DNA of 64,000 nucleotides, taken from the NCBI GenBank assembly GCA_020248985.1, contig JADCGL010000022.1, positions 1 through 64,000 on the forward strand. Direction: 5' to 3'. Source of the stretch: Telmatospirillum sp. (GTDB lineage: Bacteria; Pseudomonadota; Alphaproteobacteria; CACIAM-22H2). The notes beneath the pieces are model-generated. The model ran no database searches. It was not told the origin of the DNA and saw only the letters and a list, made by a program, of their open reading frames with translations. Below are positions 14,524 through 35,505 of this stretch, piece by piece (the first letter of the stretch is position 1; each line of letters starts with the position of its first letter). Made by a program: the position numbers and the translations under genes.

Positions 14524-15987
14524 ATGACCGTGAATGCCGATCTCGTGGCTTTGGTTCCCAAGCTCGCAGGCGCGCGCATCGTGTGCATCGGCGATCTGAT
14601 GCTCGACCGTTTCGTCTACGGCCGCGCCGAGCGCATCTCGCCCGAAGCGCCGATCCCGGTCCTGCGCATCGACCGCGAAGAATCGATGCTGGGCGGGGCG
14701 GGCAACGTGGTGCGCAACATCGTCGGTCTCGGCGGCCACGTGGAATTCGTTTCGGTCGTGGGCCAGGACGCGGCGGGCCGCGAAGTGCTGGGCCTCGTGG
14801 CGGGCCTCGAGGGCGTGGAGCCGCATCTGTTGGTCGAGCGCGATCGGCCGACGACGATCAAAACGCGCTTCGTGGCCGGCCACCAGCAGATGCTGCGCGC
14901 GGACAGCGAAACCAGCGCCCCCATCGCCGCCTCGACCGCCGAAGACGCATCGCGCCTCGTGGCCCAAGCCATGAAAGATTGCGGCGTCGTCGTGCTGTCG
15001 GACTACGCCAAAGGCGTGCTGCTGCCCGAGCAGATCGCCGCGATCGTCAAGGCCGCGAAAGCCGCCAAGCGCATCGTGATCGTCGATCCCAAGGGCCGCG
15101 ACTATGCGCGCTACAAGGGGGCCACGATCCTTACGCCCAATCGGCGCGAACTGGCCGAAGCGACCGGCCTGCCGGCCGAAGGGGACAAGGGCGTCGAGCT
15201 TGCCGCCCGCCGCCTTCTCAAAACCACGGGTGCGGAAGCCATCGTCGTCACGCGCGGGGCCGAAGGCATGAGCATCGTGCCCGCCAAAGGCAAGGTCGAA
15301 CATCTGCCCGCCCTTGCGCGCGAAGTGTTCGACGTGTCCGGGGCGGGCGATACGGTCATCGCAACGCTCGCGACCGCACTCGCGGGCGGACTCAAACTGC
15401 TCGATGCCGCACGGCTCGCCTCGGTCGCGGCGAGCGTGGTGGTGGCCAAGCTCGGCACGGCCGTCGCCTACTCGGCCGATCTCGTGCGCGCACTCCGCCA
15501 CGACGACATCGCGGTCAGCGAAAACAAATTCGTCACCGATGCGCAGGCGGTCGATCAGGTCGCCATTTGGCGCCGCCAGGGCTTGCGCGTCGGCTTCACG
15601 AACGGCTGCTTCGACCTCCTGCACCCGGGCCATGTCTCGCTGATCGCACAGGCGCGCAGCGCTTGCGACCGGCTCGTGGTCGGCCTCAATTCGGATGCGT
15701 CGATCAAGCGCCTCAAGGGCGAGAGCCGCCCTGTGCAGGGCGAAGCCGCGCGGGCGGCCGTGCTTGCGTCGCTCGGCCAAGTCGATCTCGTGGTCGTGTT
15801 CGCCGAAGACACGCCGATCAAACTTATCAAGGCGCTGAAGCCCGAGATCCTCGTCAAAGGGGCCGACTACACCAAAGACAAAGTGGTGGGGGCGCGCGAG
15901 GTCGAAGGCTGGGGCGGCAAGGTGGTGCTGGCCAAGCTCGTCGAAGGCCAGAGCACCACCGCCACGATCCGCAAGATCGGGCGCTAA
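14524..15987 (+). CDS. hldE: Bifunctional heptose-7-phosphate kinase / heptose-1-phosphate adenylyltransferase
   Basis: 487 residues. Residues ~1-330 are a ribokinase (PfkB) domain: LGGAGNVVRNIVGLGG near 58, and VFDVSGAGDTVIA near 275 with the catalytic Asp of G-A-G-D. Residues ~350-487 are the nucleotidyltransferase: VGFTNGCFDLLHPGHVSLI with the H-x-G-H motif, and VGLNSDASIKRLKG. Together these phosphorylate heptose 7-phosphate at C1 and add AMP after GmhB acts. Length and order match E. coli HldE. It ends the LPS run; its stop overlaps tail to tail with the stop of the convergent glycosyltransferase (15984-15987). Confidence 0.96.
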   Translation: MTVNADLVALVPKLAGARIVCIGDLMLDRFVYGRAERISPEAPIPVLRIDREESMLGGAGNVVRNIVGLGGHVEFVSVVGQDAAGREVLGLVAGLEGVEPHLLVERDRPTTIKTRFVAGHQQMLRADSETSAPIAASTAEDASRLVAQAMKDCGVVVLSDYAKGVLLPEQIAAIVKAAKAAKRIVIVDPKGRDYARYKGATILTPNRRELAEATGLPAEGDKGVELAARRLLKTTGAEAIVVTRGAEGMSIVPAKGKVEHLPALAREVFDVSGAGDTVIATLATALAGGLKLLDAARLASVAASVVVAKLGTAVAYSADLVRALRHDDIAVSENKFVTDAQAVDQVAIWRRQGLRVGFTNGCFDLLHPGHVSLIAQARSACDRLVVGLNSDASIKRLKGESRPVQGEAARAAVLASLGQVDLVVVFAEDTPIKLIKALKPEILVKGADYTKDKVVGAREVEGWGGKVVLAKLVEGQSTTATIRKIGR

Positions 15988-17258
15988 AACGCCTCGAGTT
16001 TTCCGGCCACCGGCAGCGGTGCGAGCGCGATAGAAGCCCGACGCGGCAGCCAGCGCGCCATCAGCCGCTCGATATTCTCGAGCCCGTCGAGCAGCCCCGG
16101 AATGACGGCCGCCGACGGCGGCGCTTGGTGCGCAAGGGCGCGCAAAGCTTCCACCATCGCGCCGGCATCGCGCACGCCGTCGTCGGGCAGCATGCGCGTG
16201 AGGCCCACGCTCTCGGCCCGCTCGGCGCGGATGAACTGCTCGAGGCGCGGGGCCACGCGCGGCACGATCACGGCCGGTTTGTCGAAGGACAGAATTTCGC
16301 AGAACGTGTTGTAGCCGCCCATCGCGACGATCCCGGCCGCACGCGTGATGAGCTGCTCGAGATGCGCGTCGAACGTGATCGCCTCGACCCGCGAGGACAA
16401 GCGCGCCGCACGATCGAGAAACTCCGACTGTTTTTCGGACTGCATGAACGGGCCCAGCACCAGCAAGGCTCGGTGCGGCAACGAAGCCCCGCTTTCGTAA
16501 GCGCGCAAGACCCAGTCGATCAGCGCATCGCCGTCGCCGCCGCCGCCCGTGGTCACGAGCACATAGGGCTGCTCGCGCGCTTCGGCCATCTCGATGGTCG
16601 AACGCGGGTTGCCCTGCGGCATCATGCGGTGCAGATAGCCCGTGTAGCTGATCTTGCGGCGCACGCTCTGCGGAATCGCAAGGCCCGCAAGCGGATCGCA
16701 GATCTGCGGCAGGCCGTATATCCATATGTCGTCGTAGAGGTCGCGCAAGGCAGGTACGGCCTTCTTGCGCTTCCATTCGGGCCCCAGCAGGGCCGGGTCG
16801 TCCATCACGTCGCGCAAGCCCAGAACCAGCGGCACGCCGCGCCGCTTGAGGAACTGCAGCGTCTCGGAAACTTCGCCGCGCAGGCCCAGCGGCTCCTTGT
16901 CGACGAGAAAAAGATCGGGGTCGAATGCCTCGGCCGTGTGGCGGATGATCGAGCCGCGGATCGACAAGGTTTGCGCGATGTCGATATGCAAGTTCAACGA
17001 AGTGTATTCGCCGTTGCGCAGCTTAATCACGCCGGGGATGCGCACGAAATCGACGCGGGCCTTGAAATCGAACGACCCGATGATCGGCGAGCCCGACAGG
17101 ATCAGAACCGAAAGATCCTTGTCCGCCTGCACCATCGCATGCGCGATGGCACGACAGCGCCGCAGATGGCCGAGGCCCATCGTGTCGTGGCTGTAGATGA
17201 GCACGCGCCGGTCTTTGCGAAACAGCCGGCGCGTCGCATTCTCCGTATCGCTCGCCAT
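15984..17258 (-). CDS. GT28/MurG-like glycosyltransferase (COG4671-type)
   Basis: 424 residues from ATG 17258, which follows a G-rich ribosome site (GCGGGGGGCTGAA). The N-terminus VLIYSHDTMGLGHLRRCRAIAH with G-L-G-H is the MurG/UGT-like acceptor loop. The C-terminal half has YVLVTTGGGGDGDALIDWVL and VAMGGYNTFCEILSFDKPAVIVPR, the donor-binding G-G-x-N-T/S motif of GT28 enzymes. It resembles the predicted glycosyltransferase group COG4671. Convergent with hldE, so it belongs to the same glycan island but to a different transcript. The upstream gap of 262 bases is shared with the divergent ABC gene and shows no further gene. Confidence 0.85.
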   Translation of the reverse strand: MASDTENATRRLFRKDRRVLIYSHDTMGLGHLRRCRAIAHAMVQADKDLSVLILSGSPIIGSFDFKARVDFVRIPGVIKLRNGEYTSLNLHIDIAQTLSIRGSIIRHTAEAFDPDLFLVDKEPLGLRGEVSETLQFLKRRGVPLVLGLRDVMDDPALLGPEWKRKKAVPALRDLYDDIWIYGLPQICDPLAGLAIPQSVRRKISYTGYLHRMMPQGNPRSTIEMAEAREQPYVLVTTGGGGDGDALIDWVLRAYESGASLPHRALLVLGPFMQSEKQSEFLDRAARLSSRVEAITFDAHLEQLITRAAGIVAMGGYNTFCEILSFDKPAVIVPRVAPRLEQFIRAERAESVGLTRMLPDDGVRDAGAMVEALRALAHQAPPSAAVIPGLLDGLENIERLMARWLPRRASIALAPLPVAGKLEAF

Positions 17259-17520
17259 TTCAGCCCCCCGCGCAACAGGCGCGCATAACCGCTTCGGCAT
17301 ACCCAATCGTTGGCACCTTATGCGAGATCGAAGGCCGCTGCCAACATGCATATTGCGGCGCAGTCCTCAGGATAAGGCCCGTAAATACCTTCACATTTCG
17401 GCTTCGTGACACTGTCGGGTCCGCCCGATGGCAATCCCTTGATTTCTTGCCCCCGGCAGCACGCTCCATATAGTCTCGGACGGGCGCAGCACGCGCAGGA
17501 CTGACGAAAAGGCCGAAAGA

Positions 17521-20211
17521 ATGCCGACACGTTCCGGAGATGGGCTCGAGCGTTCGATCTATCGCTTCGTCGTGCGATTTTCGCTGAAGGACACGATCTT
17601 CATCTGCGCACTCGTCGCCCTTGCGCAGGTCTTCTACTACATCTCGCTCGACCTGCCCAAAAACATCATGAACCAGGGCATCCAGGGCAAAGGCGTTGCC
17701 TTCCCGGTCGACATTGCGGGTCTCGGCCTGCTGTCGCTCGACCAAGTCGGCTATCTGATGTGGTTGTGTTTTCTGTTCTTGCTCGCCGTCCTAGTCAATG
17801 GGGGCCTCAAGCAGTTCGTCAACTCGCTCAAAGGCAAACTCGGCGAACGGCTGCTGCGCCGCCTGCGCTATCTTCTGATGGCGCGCATCCTGCGCTTTCC
17901 CGTGGCGCATTTTCGCAAGACTTCGTCGGGCGAGCTGATCCCCATGCTGACGGCCGAGGTCGAGCAGATCGGCGGCTTCATGGGCGATGCGTTCGTGCAG
18001 CCTTTGATGCAGGCGGGCATGCTGCTGACGATCGCGATCTTCCTGTTCGCCCAGAATCCGATCATGGGATTTGCCGCGATCTCGCTGTTTCCGATCCAGG
18101 CCTACATCGTGCCGGTGCTGCAGAAGCGCGTCAAAGAACTCGGCAAGGAGCGCGTCAAGACGGTGCGCAAGATCTCGGAGCGCATCGGAGAAACGGTCGG
18201 CGGCATCCAGGAAGTGCGCACGCTCGGCACGGCCGCATGGGAACGTGCGGACTATACCGAGCGTTTCGGGACCGTCTACCGCATCCGTTTTGCGATCTAC
18301 CAGCGCAAGTCGCTGGTCAAATTCATCAACAACACGCTGAACCAATGCGCGCCGCTGATGTTCTACGCGATCGGCGGCTATCTCGTGATTCACGGCTCGC
18401 TCAGCGTGGGTGCGCTCGTGGCAGCCCTGTCCGCGCACAAAGACATGACGGCTCCGTGGAAAGAGCTGCTCGACTACTACCAGCAGGCGCAGGACGCGCA
18501 GCAGAAATACGAGCAGGTCGTCGAGCAGTTCCAACCCGACAATCTGCTGCCCGCAGGCCTGCATGCACCTGCCGAAGCGCCGGCAAAGCCCTTCGACGGG
18601 CCGATCGTGGCGAACGCCCTTACCGTGCAGGAAGACGCCCAGACCAAGCTCCTCGAGGGGGTGAGTTTCGAGCTCCCGCTCGGCACGCATGTGGCCCTGG
18701 TCGGACCGTCGGGCGGCGGACGCGAAGCTCTGGCGATGACGCTCGCGCGCCTGTACCAACCCACCAGCGGTAGCTTGCGCATCGGCAGTCGCGACATGGC
18801 GCAGATATCGGACGCCGATCTCGGTGCGCGCATGGGCTATGTCGGTCCCAACGCCTACGTGTTCTCGGCAAGCTTGCGCGACAATCTCGCCTACGGGCTG
18901 CGCCAGCGCGTGCTCGCACCGCACGAAGACGCCGCACGCGAGAGGCTGCTCGTCGAAGCTGCTCGGGCGGGCAATCTGCCGCTCGATGTGGAAGCGCAAT
19001 GGATCGACTACGCAGCGGCAGGCGCTGCCGACGCGGCCGACTTCGACCGTGTTGCGACTGAGGTTTTGGCCAAGGTCGATCTTGCCGAAGACGTGTTTCT
19101 GCTGGGCTTGCGCGGACAGATCGATCCTGTGCGCCGCAAGAACGTGGCCGATGCAATCTTGACCGCGCGCGCTGCATTCCGTCAGCGCCTGACGGGTGCG
19201 CAAGCGGACCCTGCCTTGAAAGGTCTCGTCGAAACATTCGATCCCGAGCGCTACAACGACAACGCCACCTTGGGCGAGAATCTGCTGTTCGGCACGGCGC
19301 TGGACGCAAGCCTTGCCGGCGATGCGCTGGCGGCCCAACCCGATTTCCGGCGCATTTTGGACGAAACGGGCCTTGGGGCCGAGTTGCCGATCATGGGCCG
19401 CAAAGTCGCCGAAACCATGGTCGAACTCTTCGCCGATCTGCCGGCGGGACATGAGTTTTTCGACCGTTTCAGCTTCATCGCCGCCGACGATCTGCCGGCT
19501 TTCCAGACGGTGCTCGCGCGCACGGTGCCGCTTGCCGACGGCAGCCTGCCCGCCGACATCAGCACCGAGGACCGCGCACGCCTCGCGAGCCTGCCGCTGA
19601 AGCTCGTCGATGCGCGCCATCGCTTGGGCTTGATCGACAAAGCGTTCAAAGAGCGCGCCCTCGTGGCACGCAAGGCTCTGCGCGAAAAACTGCCCGAAAA
19701 ACTTCGCGCGAAAATCGCGTTTTTCGACCCCGACATCTACAACGCGGCCGCCTCGATCCAGGACAACATCCTGTTCGGGCGCATCGCCTACGGCCAGGCC
19801 AAAGCGCAGGCAAGCGTCGGGGCAGCCATCCGCGAGGTGCTCGAAGCTTTGGGCTTGCGCGAGCGCGTGTTCGAAATCGGCCTCGATTTCCAGGTCGGCG
19901 TGGCGGGCGGGCGCCTTTCGGCGCCGCAGCGCCAGAAGCTCGCGATCGCACGCGCTCTCGCAAAACGGCCGGAATTGCTGGTGCTCAACGACGCGGTCGC
20001 GGTGCTCGACCGCACCGGGCAAGCGCGCCTGCTCGAGAGCTTGGTTGCCGCCGCCGACGGAACCACGCTCGTGTGGGCCACGCAAGATACGGCAAGTGCC
20101 GCGCGCTTCGCTCGCGTGATGGTGTTTGCCGAAGGCCGTCTCGTCCAGGACGGTACTTACGCCGATCTCGTCGCGCGCGACGGCACGCTCAAGGAGTTGG
20201 TGGCCGCCTAG
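17521..20211 (+). CDS. ABC-transporter-like protein with degenerate, expanded nucleotide-binding domain
   Basis: 896 residues versus ~590 for ordinary half-transporters. Residues ~20-330 form an ABC exporter membrane domain with helices near 24-42, 78-95, 160-180 and 275-300. The NBD from ~365 is intact in outline but its catalytic residues are changed. Walker A at 395-402 is GPSGGGRE, with Arg401 where Lys is needed. The signature at 799-803 is LSAPQ, not LSGGQ. Walker B is LLVLNDAVAVLD at 819-830, with Asn and Asp for Asp and Glu. The H-loop histidine is absent (VWATQD, 851-856). About 340 residues are inserted between the Q-loop region and the signature. They contain two related segments, ~547-592 and ~712-754, each ending F-D-P-x-x-Y-N...[ED]-N-[LI]-L-F-G. 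ATP hydrolysis is doubtful. It is followed closely by cNMP-binding and methyltransferase genes. Confidence 0.85.
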   Translation: MPTRSGDGLERSIYRFVVRFSLKDTIFICALVALAQVFYYISLDLPKNIMNQGIQGKGVAFPVDIAGLGLLSLDQVGYLMWLCFLFLLAVLVNGGLKQFVNSLKGKLGERLLRRLRYLLMARILRFPVAHFRKTSSGELIPMLTAEVEQIGGFMGDAFVQPLMQAGMLLTIAIFLFAQNPIMGFAAISLFPIQAYIVPVLQKRVKELGKERVKTVRKISERIGETVGGIQEVRTLGTAAWERADYTERFGTVYRIRFAIYQRKSLVKFINNTLNQCAPLMFYAIGGYLVIHGSLSVGALVAALSAHKDMTAPWKELLDYYQQAQDAQQKYEQVVEQFQPDNLLPAGLHAPAEAPAKPFDGPIVANALTVQEDAQTKLLEGVSFELPLGTHVALVGPSGGGREALAMTLARLYQPTSGSLRIGSRDMAQISDADLGARMGYVGPNAYVFSASLRDNLAYGLRQRVLAPHEDAARERLLVEAARAGNLPLDVEAQWIDYAAAGAADAADFDRVATEVLAKVDLAEDVFLLGLRGQIDPVRRKNVADAILTARAAFRQRLTGAQADPALKGLVETFDPERYNDNATLGENLLFGTALDASLAGDALAAQPDFRRILDETGLGAELPIMGRKVAETMVELFADLPAGHEFFDRFSFIAADDLPAFQTVLARTVPLADGSLPADISTEDRARLASLPLKLVDARHRLGLIDKAFKERALVARKALREKLPEKLRAKIAFFDPDIYNAAASIQDNILFGRIAYGQAKAQASVGAAIREVLEALGLRERVFEIGLDFQVGVAGGRLSAPQRQKLAIARALAKRPELLVLNDAVAVLDRTGQARLLESLVAAADGTTLVWATQDTASAARFARVMVFAEGRLVQDGTYADLVARDGTLKELVAA

Positions 20212-20240: not shown

Positions 20241-20699
20241 ATGTCGCTCAAAGAAGAAACCGAGGCCCTGCGGCGCATTCCGCTGTTCCAGAATCTGGAC
20301 CCGGCGAAGCTCAAGCTGCTGGCCTTCATGAGCCAACGCCTGACCTTCGAGCCGGGCCAAGCGGTGTTCGCGCAAGGCGATCCGGGCGACGCCGCCTATA
20401 TCGTACTCGAGGGCGAAGCGGTCGTTTCGATCGACACGCCCAATGCGCGCATCGACATCGCACGGCTTGCGCGCAACGAAATCGTGGGCGAAATCGCGAT
20501 CCTGTGCGACGTGCCGCGCACCGCGCACGTGACGGCGGCCGGCGACAAGCCGCTTATCTGCCTCAAAATCGAAAAGAACGACTTCATCGGCATGCTGACC
20601 GAGTTTCCGAACATGGCGGTCGAAATCATGCGCGAACTGGCACGCCGCATCGTCAATACGAACCAGCAGCTGCGCCAGGCTGTTGCCGCCAAAGGCTGA
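20241..20699 (+). CDS. Cyclic-nucleotide-binding-domain protein
   Basis: 152 residues, essentially one cNMP-binding domain. LFQNLDPAKLKLLAFMSQRL and FEPGQAVFAQGDPGDAAYIVLEGE lead to the phosphate-binding cassette VGEIAILCDVPRTAHV, with the expected G-E, R and T/A residues at about 91-106. A C-terminal amphipathic helix (NMAVEIMRELARRIVNTNQQLRQ) could dimerise. There is no DNA-binding helix-turn-helix, so it is not a CRP-type regulator; it probably acts as a sensor on a protein partner. AAGGAACGAAACG precedes the ATG, 30 bases after the ABC-like gene, and the pairing suggests that it regulates that protein. Confidence 0.87.
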   Translation: MSLKEETEALRRIPLFQNLDPAKLKLLAFMSQRLTFEPGQAVFAQGDPGDAAYIVLEGEAVVSIDTPNARIDIARLARNEIVGEIAILCDVPRTAHVTAAGDKPLICLKIEKNDFIGMLTEFPNMAVEIMRELARRIVNTNQQLRQAVAAKG

Positions 20700-20702
20700 A
20701 CA

Positions 20703-21188
20703 ATGAGCCGTCTCGACAGTTTCATCCGCCGCCTGCAGGCGCAGCGTATCGGCCTCGACTGGGCCTGTGCGGAGCTTGGGCCCGGCTTTGTGCTCGAACT
20801 CGGGCTCGGCAATGGGCGCACCTACGACCATCTGCGCAGCCGGCTGGGGAGTGCACGCGAAATCCATGCCTTCGACCGCGCGGTCGCAGCCCACCCGGAT
20901 TGCGTACCGCCGGCCGACCATCTGCATCTGGGCGACATTCGGAATACGCTGCCGGAATTCGCCGACAGGTATCCGCACCGCACGGCGCTCGTGCATTCCG
21001 ATGCCGGCTCAGGCGTTGCGACCGAAACGGCGGCGCTTGCCGCCTTCATTGCACGCCATCTGCCTGCGATCTTGGCGCCGAACGGGCTCGTGGTCGCCGA
21101 CCAGCCGATGCCGAGCGACGCGCTTGCCGAATTGCCGCCGCCGGCGGGCATCAATCCGGGGCGCTACTTTTTCTATCGTCTGCGCTAG
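20703..21188 (+). CDS. Small class I SAM-dependent methyltransferase (PF12692-like)
   Basis: 161 residues. GFVLELGLGNGRTYDHLRSRL is the SAM-binding motif I (E-L-G-L-G-N-G-R), then IHAFDR holds the acidic residue that binds the ribose. TALVHSDAGSG and LAPNGLVVADQPM are motifs III-IV. Short length and the L-G-N-G-R-T-Y-D-H-L pattern match the small uncharacterised methyltransferase family PF12692. Only three bases separate it from the cNMP-binding gene, so the three genes from 17521 form one transcript. Its stop overlaps tail to tail with the xthA stop. Confidence 0.8.
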   Translation: MSRLDSFIRRLQAQRIGLDWACAELGPGFVLELGLGNGRTYDHLRSRLGSAREIHAFDRAVAAHPDCVPPADHLHLGDIRNTLPEFADRYPHRTALVHSDAGSGVATETAALAAFIARHLPAILAPNGLVVADQPMPSDALAELPPPAGINPGRYFFYRLR

Positions 21189-32576: not shown

Positions 32577-33719
32577 ATGAAAATTCTGTTCGTATTGCAT
32601 GACGGCGACCTCGGCGGGGCGACGACGCCTGTGCTTGAAACGATCGATGCGCTGGCGGGCAAAGATTTTTCGTTTGCCGCCCTCGTGCCGCAGCCGGGAA
32701 GCGTGTCGGCCGCCCTGACCCAGCGCGGCGTGCCGTGGAAAGCGCTGCCCTTGCCGCTCTGGACGTCGACCAAAGGGCGGCGGCGCTTTCGCAATATCTG
32801 GGACAGCTGGAAGGCAATCCCCGCCGTCGTCAATGCTGTGCGCGCGATCGCCCCTGATCTCGTGCTGTCCAATTCCGCGACGATCGGGCTCGGCAGCATG
32901 GCCGCCGCCCATCTCGGCATCCGGCATGTCTGGTGGCTGCAGGAATTCGTGTGGGAGGACCACCAGCTCGCCTTCGATTTCGGATGGAAGCTGACGGGCT
33001 GGCTGATGGACCAGCGCAGCGTGCTGGCCTTGGTCCCGTCCAAAGCGATCGCGGACAAATGGGCGCCCTATATCGGGCCGCACAAACAAGTGCGGATCGA
33101 CTACCACATCAAAGACCAGCCGCGTTTCGCCGAAGCACCGGCCTTCAATCCGGCGGGCGCCTTCCATCTGGTGCTGGCGGGCTCGCTCAACCCGCAAAAA
33201 GGCCAGATGGACGCGATCGACGCAATGGGGCGGCTGCATACGCGCAATGTGCATCTGCATCTTTTCGGCACCGGCGGGCGCGGCTATGCCGCGCGGCTGC
33301 GCGCGCGCGCCGAAACGCTGGGCCTCAACGAACAAGTGCATTTCCACGGCCATGTCGAGGGTGTTGCCGCACGCTTGCGAAAGGCCAATGCGATCCTGAT
33401 TACCTCCCGCTGCGAAGGGCTCGGTCGCATCACGATCGAAGCGATGCGCTCGGGCGTGCCGATCGTGGCGACCGATGCGGGGGGCATCCCCGAGCTCATC
33501 GAGAATGGACGCAAGGGCATCCTCTATCCGCCCGGCGATGCGGCGGCGCTCGCCGAAGCGATCGAACATCTGATCGCAAGTCCGCAATATGCGGCAGGCC
33601 TCGGCGCCGCCGCACGGCAATGGGCGAGCCAGCACTACGGTGCCGAGCAATTCGCCCAGGCGATCGAAGCGGCCCTGCGGCGGGCCGAAGCCACCGATAC
33701 AGCGCCCCGCACGAGGTAA
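32577..33719 (+). CDS. GT4-family glycosyltransferase
   Basis: 380 residues from ATG 32577. MKILFVLHDGDLGGATTPVLETIDAL is a GT-B opening with the G-G loop. FHLVLAGSLNPQKGQMDAIDAM begins the donor half, and SRCEGLGRITIEAMRSGVPIVATDAGGIPE carries the E-x7-E motif. It differs from the other glycosyltransferases here in sequence and lies one base before the MsbA-like gene, so the pair is co-transcribed; it may build the glycolipid that the exporter moves. Acceptor unknown. Confidence 0.88.
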   Translation: MKILFVLHDGDLGGATTPVLETIDALAGKDFSFAALVPQPGSVSAALTQRGVPWKALPLPLWTSTKGRRRFRNIWDSWKAIPAVVNAVRAIAPDLVLSNSATIGLGSMAAAHLGIRHVWWLQEFVWEDHQLAFDFGWKLTGWLMDQRSVLALVPSKAIADKWAPYIGPHKQVRIDYHIKDQPRFAEAPAFNPAGAFHLVLAGSLNPQKGQMDAIDAMGRLHTRNVHLHLFGTGGRGYAARLRARAETLGLNEQVHFHGHVEGVAARLRKANAILITSRCEGLGRITIEAMRSGVPIVATDAGGIPELIENGRKGILYPPGDAAALAEAIEHLIASPQYAAGLGAAARQWASQHYGAEQFAQAIEAALRRAEATDTAPRTR

Positions 33720-33720
33720 C

Positions 33721-35505
33721 ATGGCTTTCCCGCTGCTCGCCGACCAGTCGACCAAAGCGCTTGTCGGGCGCCTGCTGCAGCGCCATGTGCGCCAACATTG
33801 GCGGCGGCTGGCGTTGGCCGCGACCTGCATGGCGCTGACGGCAGCGGCCACTGCTTTCAACGCCTGGATGATGGAACCGGTGCTCGACAAGGTGTTCGTC
33901 GAGCGCAACACGGGCATGCTCTATCTCATTCCGGCCGCCGTCGTGCTGGCGGCGTTGGTCAAGGGCCTGTCGAGCTACGGACAGGGCGTGCTGCTCAACC
34001 AGGTCGGCCAGCGCATCATTGCCGACCTGCAGCTCAAGCTGTTCGCCCAGACAGTGCGCGCGGATCTTGCGTTCTTCAACGAAAACTCGGCCTCGAAGCT
34101 CGCCATGCGCCTGTCGCACGATGTGGGCCTCATGCGCCAAGCGATCACGCAAGCGATCACCGGCATCACCAAAGACACGCTTACCGTCGTGTTTCTCGTG
34201 GCGCTGATGTTCTACCAGGATTGGCAGATGGCGCTGGTCGCGTTCGTGGTGTTCCCGATCGCGATCCTGCCGATCGTGCGCCTAGGCAAGCGCATGCGCA
34301 AAGTCTCGACCTCGATGCAGGGCGAACTCGGCGGCTTCGTATCGCTGATCGACGAAGCCTTCCAGGGCATTCGCCACGTCAAAGCCTACGGCATGGAGGC
34401 CGCCGAAACGGCCAAGGCGCGACTGGCGACCGAGCGCATTTTCGAACTCACGCACAAGGGGGCGCGCACGCGCTCCGCCGCCTCGCCGATCATGGAAACG
34501 CTGGGCTCGGTGGCGATCGCCCTCGTGATCTTCTACGGCGGCTTTCGCGTGATCGAAGGGGCGACCACGCCGGGCACGTTTTTTTCGTTCATCACGGCGC
34601 TGCTCTTGGCCTACCAACCGGTCAAGAGTCTCGCCAACCTCAACACCGCCCTGCAGGAGGGGCTTGCGGCGGCCGCGCGCGTCTTCGCACTCGAAGACAT
34701 GCAGCCGCAGATCGTCGACCGGCCGGGGGCAGTGGCGCTGCCGAGCGTGCGCGGCGAACTGCGCTTCCAGAATGTCGGCTTCGGCTATCGACCGGAGCGG
34801 CGCACGCTCGACGGCATCGATTTGTTCGTGCCCGCCGGCAAGACCGTGGCGCTTGTCGGCCCCTCGGGCGGCGGCAAGACGACCATCCTCAATCTGCTGC
34901 CGCGCTTCTACGACATCGACAGCGGCAGCATCCGCATCGACGGCTACGACATTCGCGACATCCGCATCGATTCGCTGCGCAGCCACATCGCCCTAGTGAC
35001 GCAGGAAACCAACCTGTTCCACGACACGATCCGGGCCAACATCGCCTACGGCAAGCCCGAGGCCGACGACGCCCAACTGCGCAGTGCAGCACGCGCTGCT
35101 GGCGCACTCGACTTCATCGAAGCCCTGCCCGAGGGGTTCGACACGGTCGTCGGCGACCGCGGTGTCAAGCTCTCGGGCGGCCAGCGACAGCGCATAGCGA
35201 TCGCGCGCGCCTTTTTAAAAGACGCACCCATTCTGCTGCTCGACGAAGCCACAAGTGCGCTCGACAACGAGTCCGAGCGCGTCGTGCAAGCCTCGCTCGG
35301 CCTGCTGATGCGTGGGCGCACGACAGTCGTCGTCGCGCATCGCCTGTCGACGATCGTCGATGCCGACATCATCTACGTGATCGAAGGCGGGCGGGTGGTG
35401 GAGAGCGGCTCGCACGCCGAGCTCGCGGCCGCGGGCGGCGTCTATGCGCGCCTGCATGCGCTGCAGATCGAAGCCCCGGAAAGCGGCGCTTCCGAGAGCT
35501 CATAA
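33721..35505 (+). CDS. MsbA-like ABC exporter (lipid/LPS flippase type)
   Basis: 594 residues, the size of a complete half-transporter. Six membrane helices fall in ~28-320. The NBD is canonical: Walker A GPSGGGKTT, Q-loop LVTQETNLFHDTIRANIAYG, signature KLSGGQRQRIAIARA, Walker B ILLLDEATSALD, H-loop VVVAHRLST. Homodimeric export of lipid A-core or a related glycolipid is the likely job, given the directly coupled glycosyltransferase. This normal NBD is a useful contrast with the degenerate protein at 17.5 kb. A strong hairpin follows the stop. Confidence 0.92.
   Translation: MAFPLLADQSTKALVGRLLQRHVRQHWRRLALAATCMALTAAATAFNAWMMEPVLDKVFVERNTGMLYLIPAAVVLAALVKGLSSYGQGVLLNQVGQRIIADLQLKLFAQTVRADLAFFNENSASKLAMRLSHDVGLMRQAITQAITGITKDTLTVVFLVALMFYQDWQMALVAFVVFPIAILPIVRLGKRMRKVSTSMQGELGGFVSLIDEAFQGIRHVKAYGMEAAETAKARLATERIFELTHKGARTRSAASPIMETLGSVAIALVIFYGGFRVIEGATTPGTFFSFITALLLAYQPVKSLANLNTALQEGLAAAARVFALEDMQPQIVDRPGAVALPSVRGELRFQNVGFGYRPERRTLDGIDLFVPAGKTVALVGPSGGGKTTILNLLPRFYDIDSGSIRIDGYDIRDIRIDSLRSHIALVTQETNLFHDTIRANIAYGKPEADDAQLRSAARAAGALDFIEALPEGFDTVVGDRGVKLSGGQRQRIAIARAFLKDAPILLLDEATSALDNESERVVQASLGLLMRGRTTVVVAHRLSTIVDADIIYVIEGGRVVESGSHAELAAAGGVYARLHALQIEAPESGASESS

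Follow-up and report, generated by a model that had tools for sequence, protein, structure and literature searches.

The window, a stretch of 64,000 nucleotides from Telmatospirillum sp. (contig JADCGL010000022.1), encoded an ABC exporter half whose ATPase motifs were degenerate and whose nucleotide-binding domain (NBD) harbored a long insert; it is called the insert protein below. In our best reading, it would be a flippase, scramblase or channel for glycolipids that is regulated by cyclic nucleotides and has lost normal ATP hydrolysis, its mechanism being set out conditionally below.

The ORF displayed a PF00664 (ABC_membrane) match at residues 61-304 (E=7e-28) and a PF00005 (ABC_tran) match broken into two pieces (Pfam), and it represented a type IV ABC exporter half with its NBD motifs in the usual order (Table 1). 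The canonical motifs were not matched at any of three places: (i) Walker A GxxGxGK[ST] was replaced by G395-PSGGG-R401-E402; (ii) the Walker B Asp and catalytic Glu by LLVL-N823-D824; and (iii) LSGGQ and the H-loop His by L799SAPQ803 and Gln855. All these motif changes (Arg401, Glu402, LSAPQ, Asn823, Asp824, and the absent H-loop His) had been listed in the preliminary description, and they were reproduced on the sequence together with the intact reading frame and its coordinates. Moreover, Q-loop position 443 was Pro, and the A-loop aromatic was missing. A frame or assembly artefact was ruled out by the existence of 86 homologues (see below), and pseudogene decay was ruled out by intact frames and by dN/dS values of 0.02-0.36 in every segment (close pairs), which indicated that the NBD is maintained.

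Table 1. Features of the insert protein and its neighbors in the window
Feature	Residues	Position	Strand
GT28-like glycosyltransferase, divergently transcribed, conserved neighbor		15984..17351	-
Non-canonical ABC exporter half, 896 aa		17521..20211	+
Transmembrane domain (TMD), best-conserved part of the family	10-342	17548..18546	+
Degenerate Walker A GPSGGGRE	395-402	18703..18726	+
Copy A of post-Q-loop/helical element, canonical place	437-532	18829..19116	+
Copy B of the element, inserted	546-628	19156..19404	+
Copy C of the element, leading into the signature	701-789	19621..19887	+
Degenerate signature LSAPQ	799-803	19915..19929	+
Degenerate Walker B LLVLND	819-824	19975..19992	+
H-loop position, Gln	855	20083..20085	+
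Stand-alone cyclic-nucleotide-binding (cNMP) protein, no DNA-binding domain, phosphate-binding cassette GEIAIL..PRTA intact		20241..20699	+
SAM methyltransferase PF12692 (Methyltransf_17), module member in many genomes		20703..21188	+

The Q-loop-to-signature region spanned 356 residues in the insert protein, versus 56 in a canonical half-exporter (33589-35505) of the same window, giving a net insertion of about 300 residues; the insertion noticed earlier was therefore present, but its size had been put too high at about 340. In family profile comparison, copies B and C matched each other with E=5e-16 (30% identity, 77 columns), so that the two repeats previously located at about 547-592 and 712-754 were beyond chance, and copy A matched B with E=4e-6 and C with E=2e-5. 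The Q-loop-to-signature elements of 18 ordinary exporters were made into a canonical profile, which matched A with E=1e-10, B with E=2e-5, and C with E=7e-17, while the control stretch 601-705 between B and C gave no match (E=0.32); the match of A confirmed that a third copy sits in the normal place. AlphaFold gave a low-quality model of the entire protein (pLDDT 65) but a usable one of the NBD alone (mean pLDDT 78), in which helices and short strands came in the same order in B and C. The profile matches and this shared order together identified the insert as two further copies of the element, bearing out the repeated duplication of an NBD piece that had been proposed. The NBD core was predicted to close around the insert in a manner matching solved ABC NBDs, with a TM-score of about 0.7 (normalised by target) between the modelled core and the TAP1 NBD. 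A known separate domain as the source of the insert was excluded, since the insert had no sequence relative in PDB and its region matched no other Pfam family.

The insert protein was not confined to the window. Matches were found in all 22 other sampled genomes of the same GTDB family (one match being limited to residues 8-487 on its contig) and in 131 of 385 sampled Alphaproteobacteria genomes (E<=1e-60); an insert-only profile searched across Pseudomonadota matched 31 of 399 sampled genomes, every one of them alphaproteobacterial. The nearest named genomes with orthologues were uncultured Rhodospirillales and Tagaea sp., and 262 plasmid records matched as well, mainly from Rhizobium and Sinorhizobium and including pSymB of S. 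meliloti, where the orthologue lies at 459940-462651 of CP130053.1. SMb20813 of S. meliloti has been named an msbA homologue (PMC10945364), and it may be the orthologue of the insert protein in that species. Literature searches found no study of the insert family, which is widespread in Alphaproteobacteria yet unstudied.

The sequence comparison was applied to a family set of 86 distinct alphaproteobacterial homologues. The insert was always present (86/86), with a length of 304-328 aa and a single case of 391 aa (L083). A 1340-aa ORF (L088:4685-8707) carried about 450 additional N-terminal residues ahead of the TMD, with no Pfam match there. The full canonical ATPase set was found in 0/86 homologues and the signature SGG likewise in 0/86, LSGGQ being lost throughout, and 23 homologues, the window protein among them, had none of the seven scored canonical states; these motif columns are uncertain in the most divergent rows (L070-L074). 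The Walker A Lys was kept in half of the family, the residue after it was S/T in 4 homologues and Asp/Glu in 70, the Walker B Asp was changed to Asn/Ser in 67, and the usual A-loop aromatic was absent from most. The P-loop glycines (78/86), the D-loop Asp (80/86), and QRQ after the signature were kept, and their persistence together with that of the Walker A Lys would be expected if some nucleotide still binds. The earlier claim of a dead ATPase thus held insofar as the site is non-canonical family-wide, but not in full, because 16 insert-bearing homologues had the Lys of Walker A, the catalytic Glu, and the His of the H-loop together, a set that the preliminary description had itself named as refuting its claim. 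L047 and L031 were among those retaining the most residues, L047 having these three plus the Walker B Asp, and L083 had GKS with DE. Complete dismantling is accordingly lineage-specific, and the family forms a series of decay stages. The information content was 2.61 for the TMD versus about 1.8-2.3 across NBD segments, and TM6 contained a charged pair specific to the insert family (K307 in 84/86 and D/E308 in 86/86). The family kept its membrane part while its ATPase part decayed and gained repeated pieces.

The alternative that survived best, although we consider it unlikely, is a still ATP-driven exporter with a rebuilt metal site, in which an acidic residue would have shifted from Walker B to Walker A and the duplicated elements and the cNMP sensor would regulate transport. 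In 58/86 homologues, the residue following the Walker A Lys/Arg was acidic and Asn/Ser stood in place of the Walker B Asp, and the acidic residue 402 with Asn/Ser at 823 is a possible displaced metal ligand; the persisting P-loop glycines, D-loop Asp and QRQ, the 16 homologues retaining Lys/Glu/His, the GKS and DE of L083, and the predicted closure of the core all fit such an exporter. The loss of LSGGQ in all homologues and of the A-loop aromatic in most argues against it, the swap between Walker A and Walker B is not strict because the acidic 402 was also found with Asp823, and canonical hydrolysis cannot be the shared function because 23 homologues have the insert yet no canonical state.

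The genes for the cNMP sensor and the methyltransferase were located directly behind the ABC gene, as previously described, and the link to the sensor extended across the family, being adjacent or fused in 84/86 homologues: (i) a cNMP protein lay downstream on the same strand within 105 bp (median gap 29 bp) in 73; and (ii) a cNMP domain was fused to the C-terminus of the insert protein in 11. The two others were L018 (contig end) and L081. The phosphate-binding cassette of the cNMP proteins (Arg in 85/85 and Glu in 80/85) was better conserved than the ABC ATPase site, and a sensor with an intact cassette is tied to the membrane protein. Such near-constant pairing or fusion would fit a transporter under the control of a small signal molecule, not one driven by ATP in the usual manner. 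Orthologous cNMP proteins are annotated in the records as Crp/Fnr transcriptional regulators; Pfam found no DNA-binding domain in the cNMP protein of the window. S. meliloti and Phyllobacterium, along with a few others, had a class III cyclase near the insert gene; the one near the Phyllobacterium orthologue (L130:16181-17923) was of the adenylate/guanylate type and had a 2Fe-2S domain at its N-terminus.

The GT28-like neighbor was found, usually divergent, at no fewer than 62/86 loci, and the PF12692 methyltransferase followed in at least 38 homologues, both counts being minima since the flanks at many loci were short. In many loci, the insert protein was also accompanied by a GT4 gene and a further GT28-like gene. 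These glycosyltransferase neighbors suggest that the cargo is a glycan or glycolipid.

Shorter relatives, about 320 aa long and with an ABC exporter TMD but no NBD, were also found, one in this genome (L109:6726-7679) and others in L113, L114, and L131-L160. In the TMD tree, these NBD-less proteins formed the sister clade (support 85/93) of the insert family (support 95/90), and the two together were split with 100/100 from 18 canonical exporters. Both clades shared non-canonical TMD residues, including Q25, K97, E146, E148, P161, G166, P198, R216, and K263. Across the 385 genomes, all 33 genomes with a TMD-only protein also had the insert protein (log10 probability -16.8, phylogeny ignored), as counted with a TMD-only profile of five sequences from one family, which makes its coverage of the clade incomplete. 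This co-occurrence, and the fact that many heterodimeric exporters have degenerate sites, would fit a heterodimer in which the insert protein is the degenerate half and pairs with a canonical exporter or with the NBD-less paralogue, encoded at another place. We regard this arrangement as improbable: no canonical half-exporter partner was linked to the loci read with wide flanks except L071, the TMD-only gene was unlinked to the insert gene in this genome, and the NBD-less clade was undetected in most genomes with the insert protein. A non-transporting scaffold or sensor that holds glycosyltransferases and the methyltransferase to the membrane in a cNMP-controlled way would agree with the conserved enzyme neighborhood but is very improbable: the best-conserved part is the TMD, whose TM5/TM6 have polar residues specific to the family, which suggests that something passes or binds there.

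The reading that we prefer, to which we assign a probability of about 0.45 as a whole, is a homodimeric membrane protein derived from an ABC exporter that is switched by a cyclic nucleotide and either moves or acts as a gate for a glycan or lipid-linked glycan. The neighboring glycosyltransferases would make the glycan or lipid-linked glycan cargo; the NBD, lacking a canonical ATP hydrolysis cycle, would have become an enlarged, mostly helical regulatory platform through duplicating its post-Q-loop element twice; the adjacent or fused sensor would act on this platform; and the TMD would be switched once the sensor had bound cAMP or cGMP, the NBD relaying the signal between them. Transport would then be downhill, as in a scramblase or channel, or powered by another gradient. 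With the TMD and the cyclic-nucleotide site of the partner guarded and the ATPase site let go, the NBD as a signal relay is the most economical reading. We infer the absence of hydrolysis, the homodimer, the ligand, the cargo, and the gating, as well as the channel, scaffold or scramblase role suggested in the preliminary description; the cargo is guessed from the neighboring genes, and a coupling to cAMP would follow from gene association.

The insert protein occurs in about a third of the sampled alphaproteobacterial genomes, where records describe it as a plain 'ABC transporter ATP-binding protein'. If its ATPase is obsolete, the family would provide living intermediates in the turning of ABC transporters into nucleotide-signal-regulated or non-ATP-driven machines, and if the preferred reading is true, it would represent a cyclic-nucleotide output on the cell envelope instead of on transcription. 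A more far-reaching version, which we hold to be rather doubtful, is a clade in which cyclic-nucleotide binding replaced ATP hydrolysis as the switch, namely a cNMP-gated scramblase or channel for glycolipids, with its NBD repurposed, its post-Q-loop element triplicated, and an NBD-less lineage as its sister.

Compared to known systems, the insert family resembled the MsbA/PglK-type flippases of lipids and lipid-linked oligosaccharides in TMD homology and glycosyltransferase neighborhood, and the best NCBIfam match of the window protein was TIGR02203 (MsbA) with 222 bits, under its cut-off of 602 bits; however, it differed from them in its degenerate ATPase motifs, repeat insert of about 300 residues, and cNMP partner, and its TMD formed a clade apart from the 18 canonical exporters tested. 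HetC of Nostoc is likewise an ABC exporter bearing a cyclic-nucleotide-binding-type domain, being a peptidase-containing exporter with an N-terminal cNMP domain that bound ppGpp, not cAMP (PMC10986499); it is a precedent for the sensor on an exporter, but its ligand speaks against taking a coupling to cAMP for granted. HetC contains a C39 peptidase and depends on its ATPase residue (PMC10986499), whereas the insert family has no peptidase, a separate or C-terminal sensor, and a degenerate ATPase; a peptidase-containing exporter (HetC-type PCAT) was excluded because Pfam gave no C39 peptidase match.

SbmA descends from an ABC exporter that lost its NBD, and it runs on protons (PMC13316013); SbmA/BacA (SLiPT) thus offers a precedent for the preferred reading, its ABC exporter TMD having become independent of ATP hydrolysis, which is relevant to the NBD-less sister clade. 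SLiPTs have no NBD, whereas the window protein retains one, though degenerate. Proton-driven transport in SLiPTs goes through a glutamate ladder, and conserved Glu/Lys residues were seen in the TMD of the insert family at the sequence level. Among PDB entries, the profile of the NBD-less clade matched Sav1866, TmrA, and MsbA but none for SbmA, so that SLiPT membership was unsupported by sequence. The degenerate-site heterodimers TmrAB and TM287/288 resemble the insert family in that their ABC exporter NBDs have catalytic residues departing from the canonical ones; they keep one consensus site via a partner, whereas the insert family has no linked partner, and a homodimer of the insert protein would have all of its sites degenerate.
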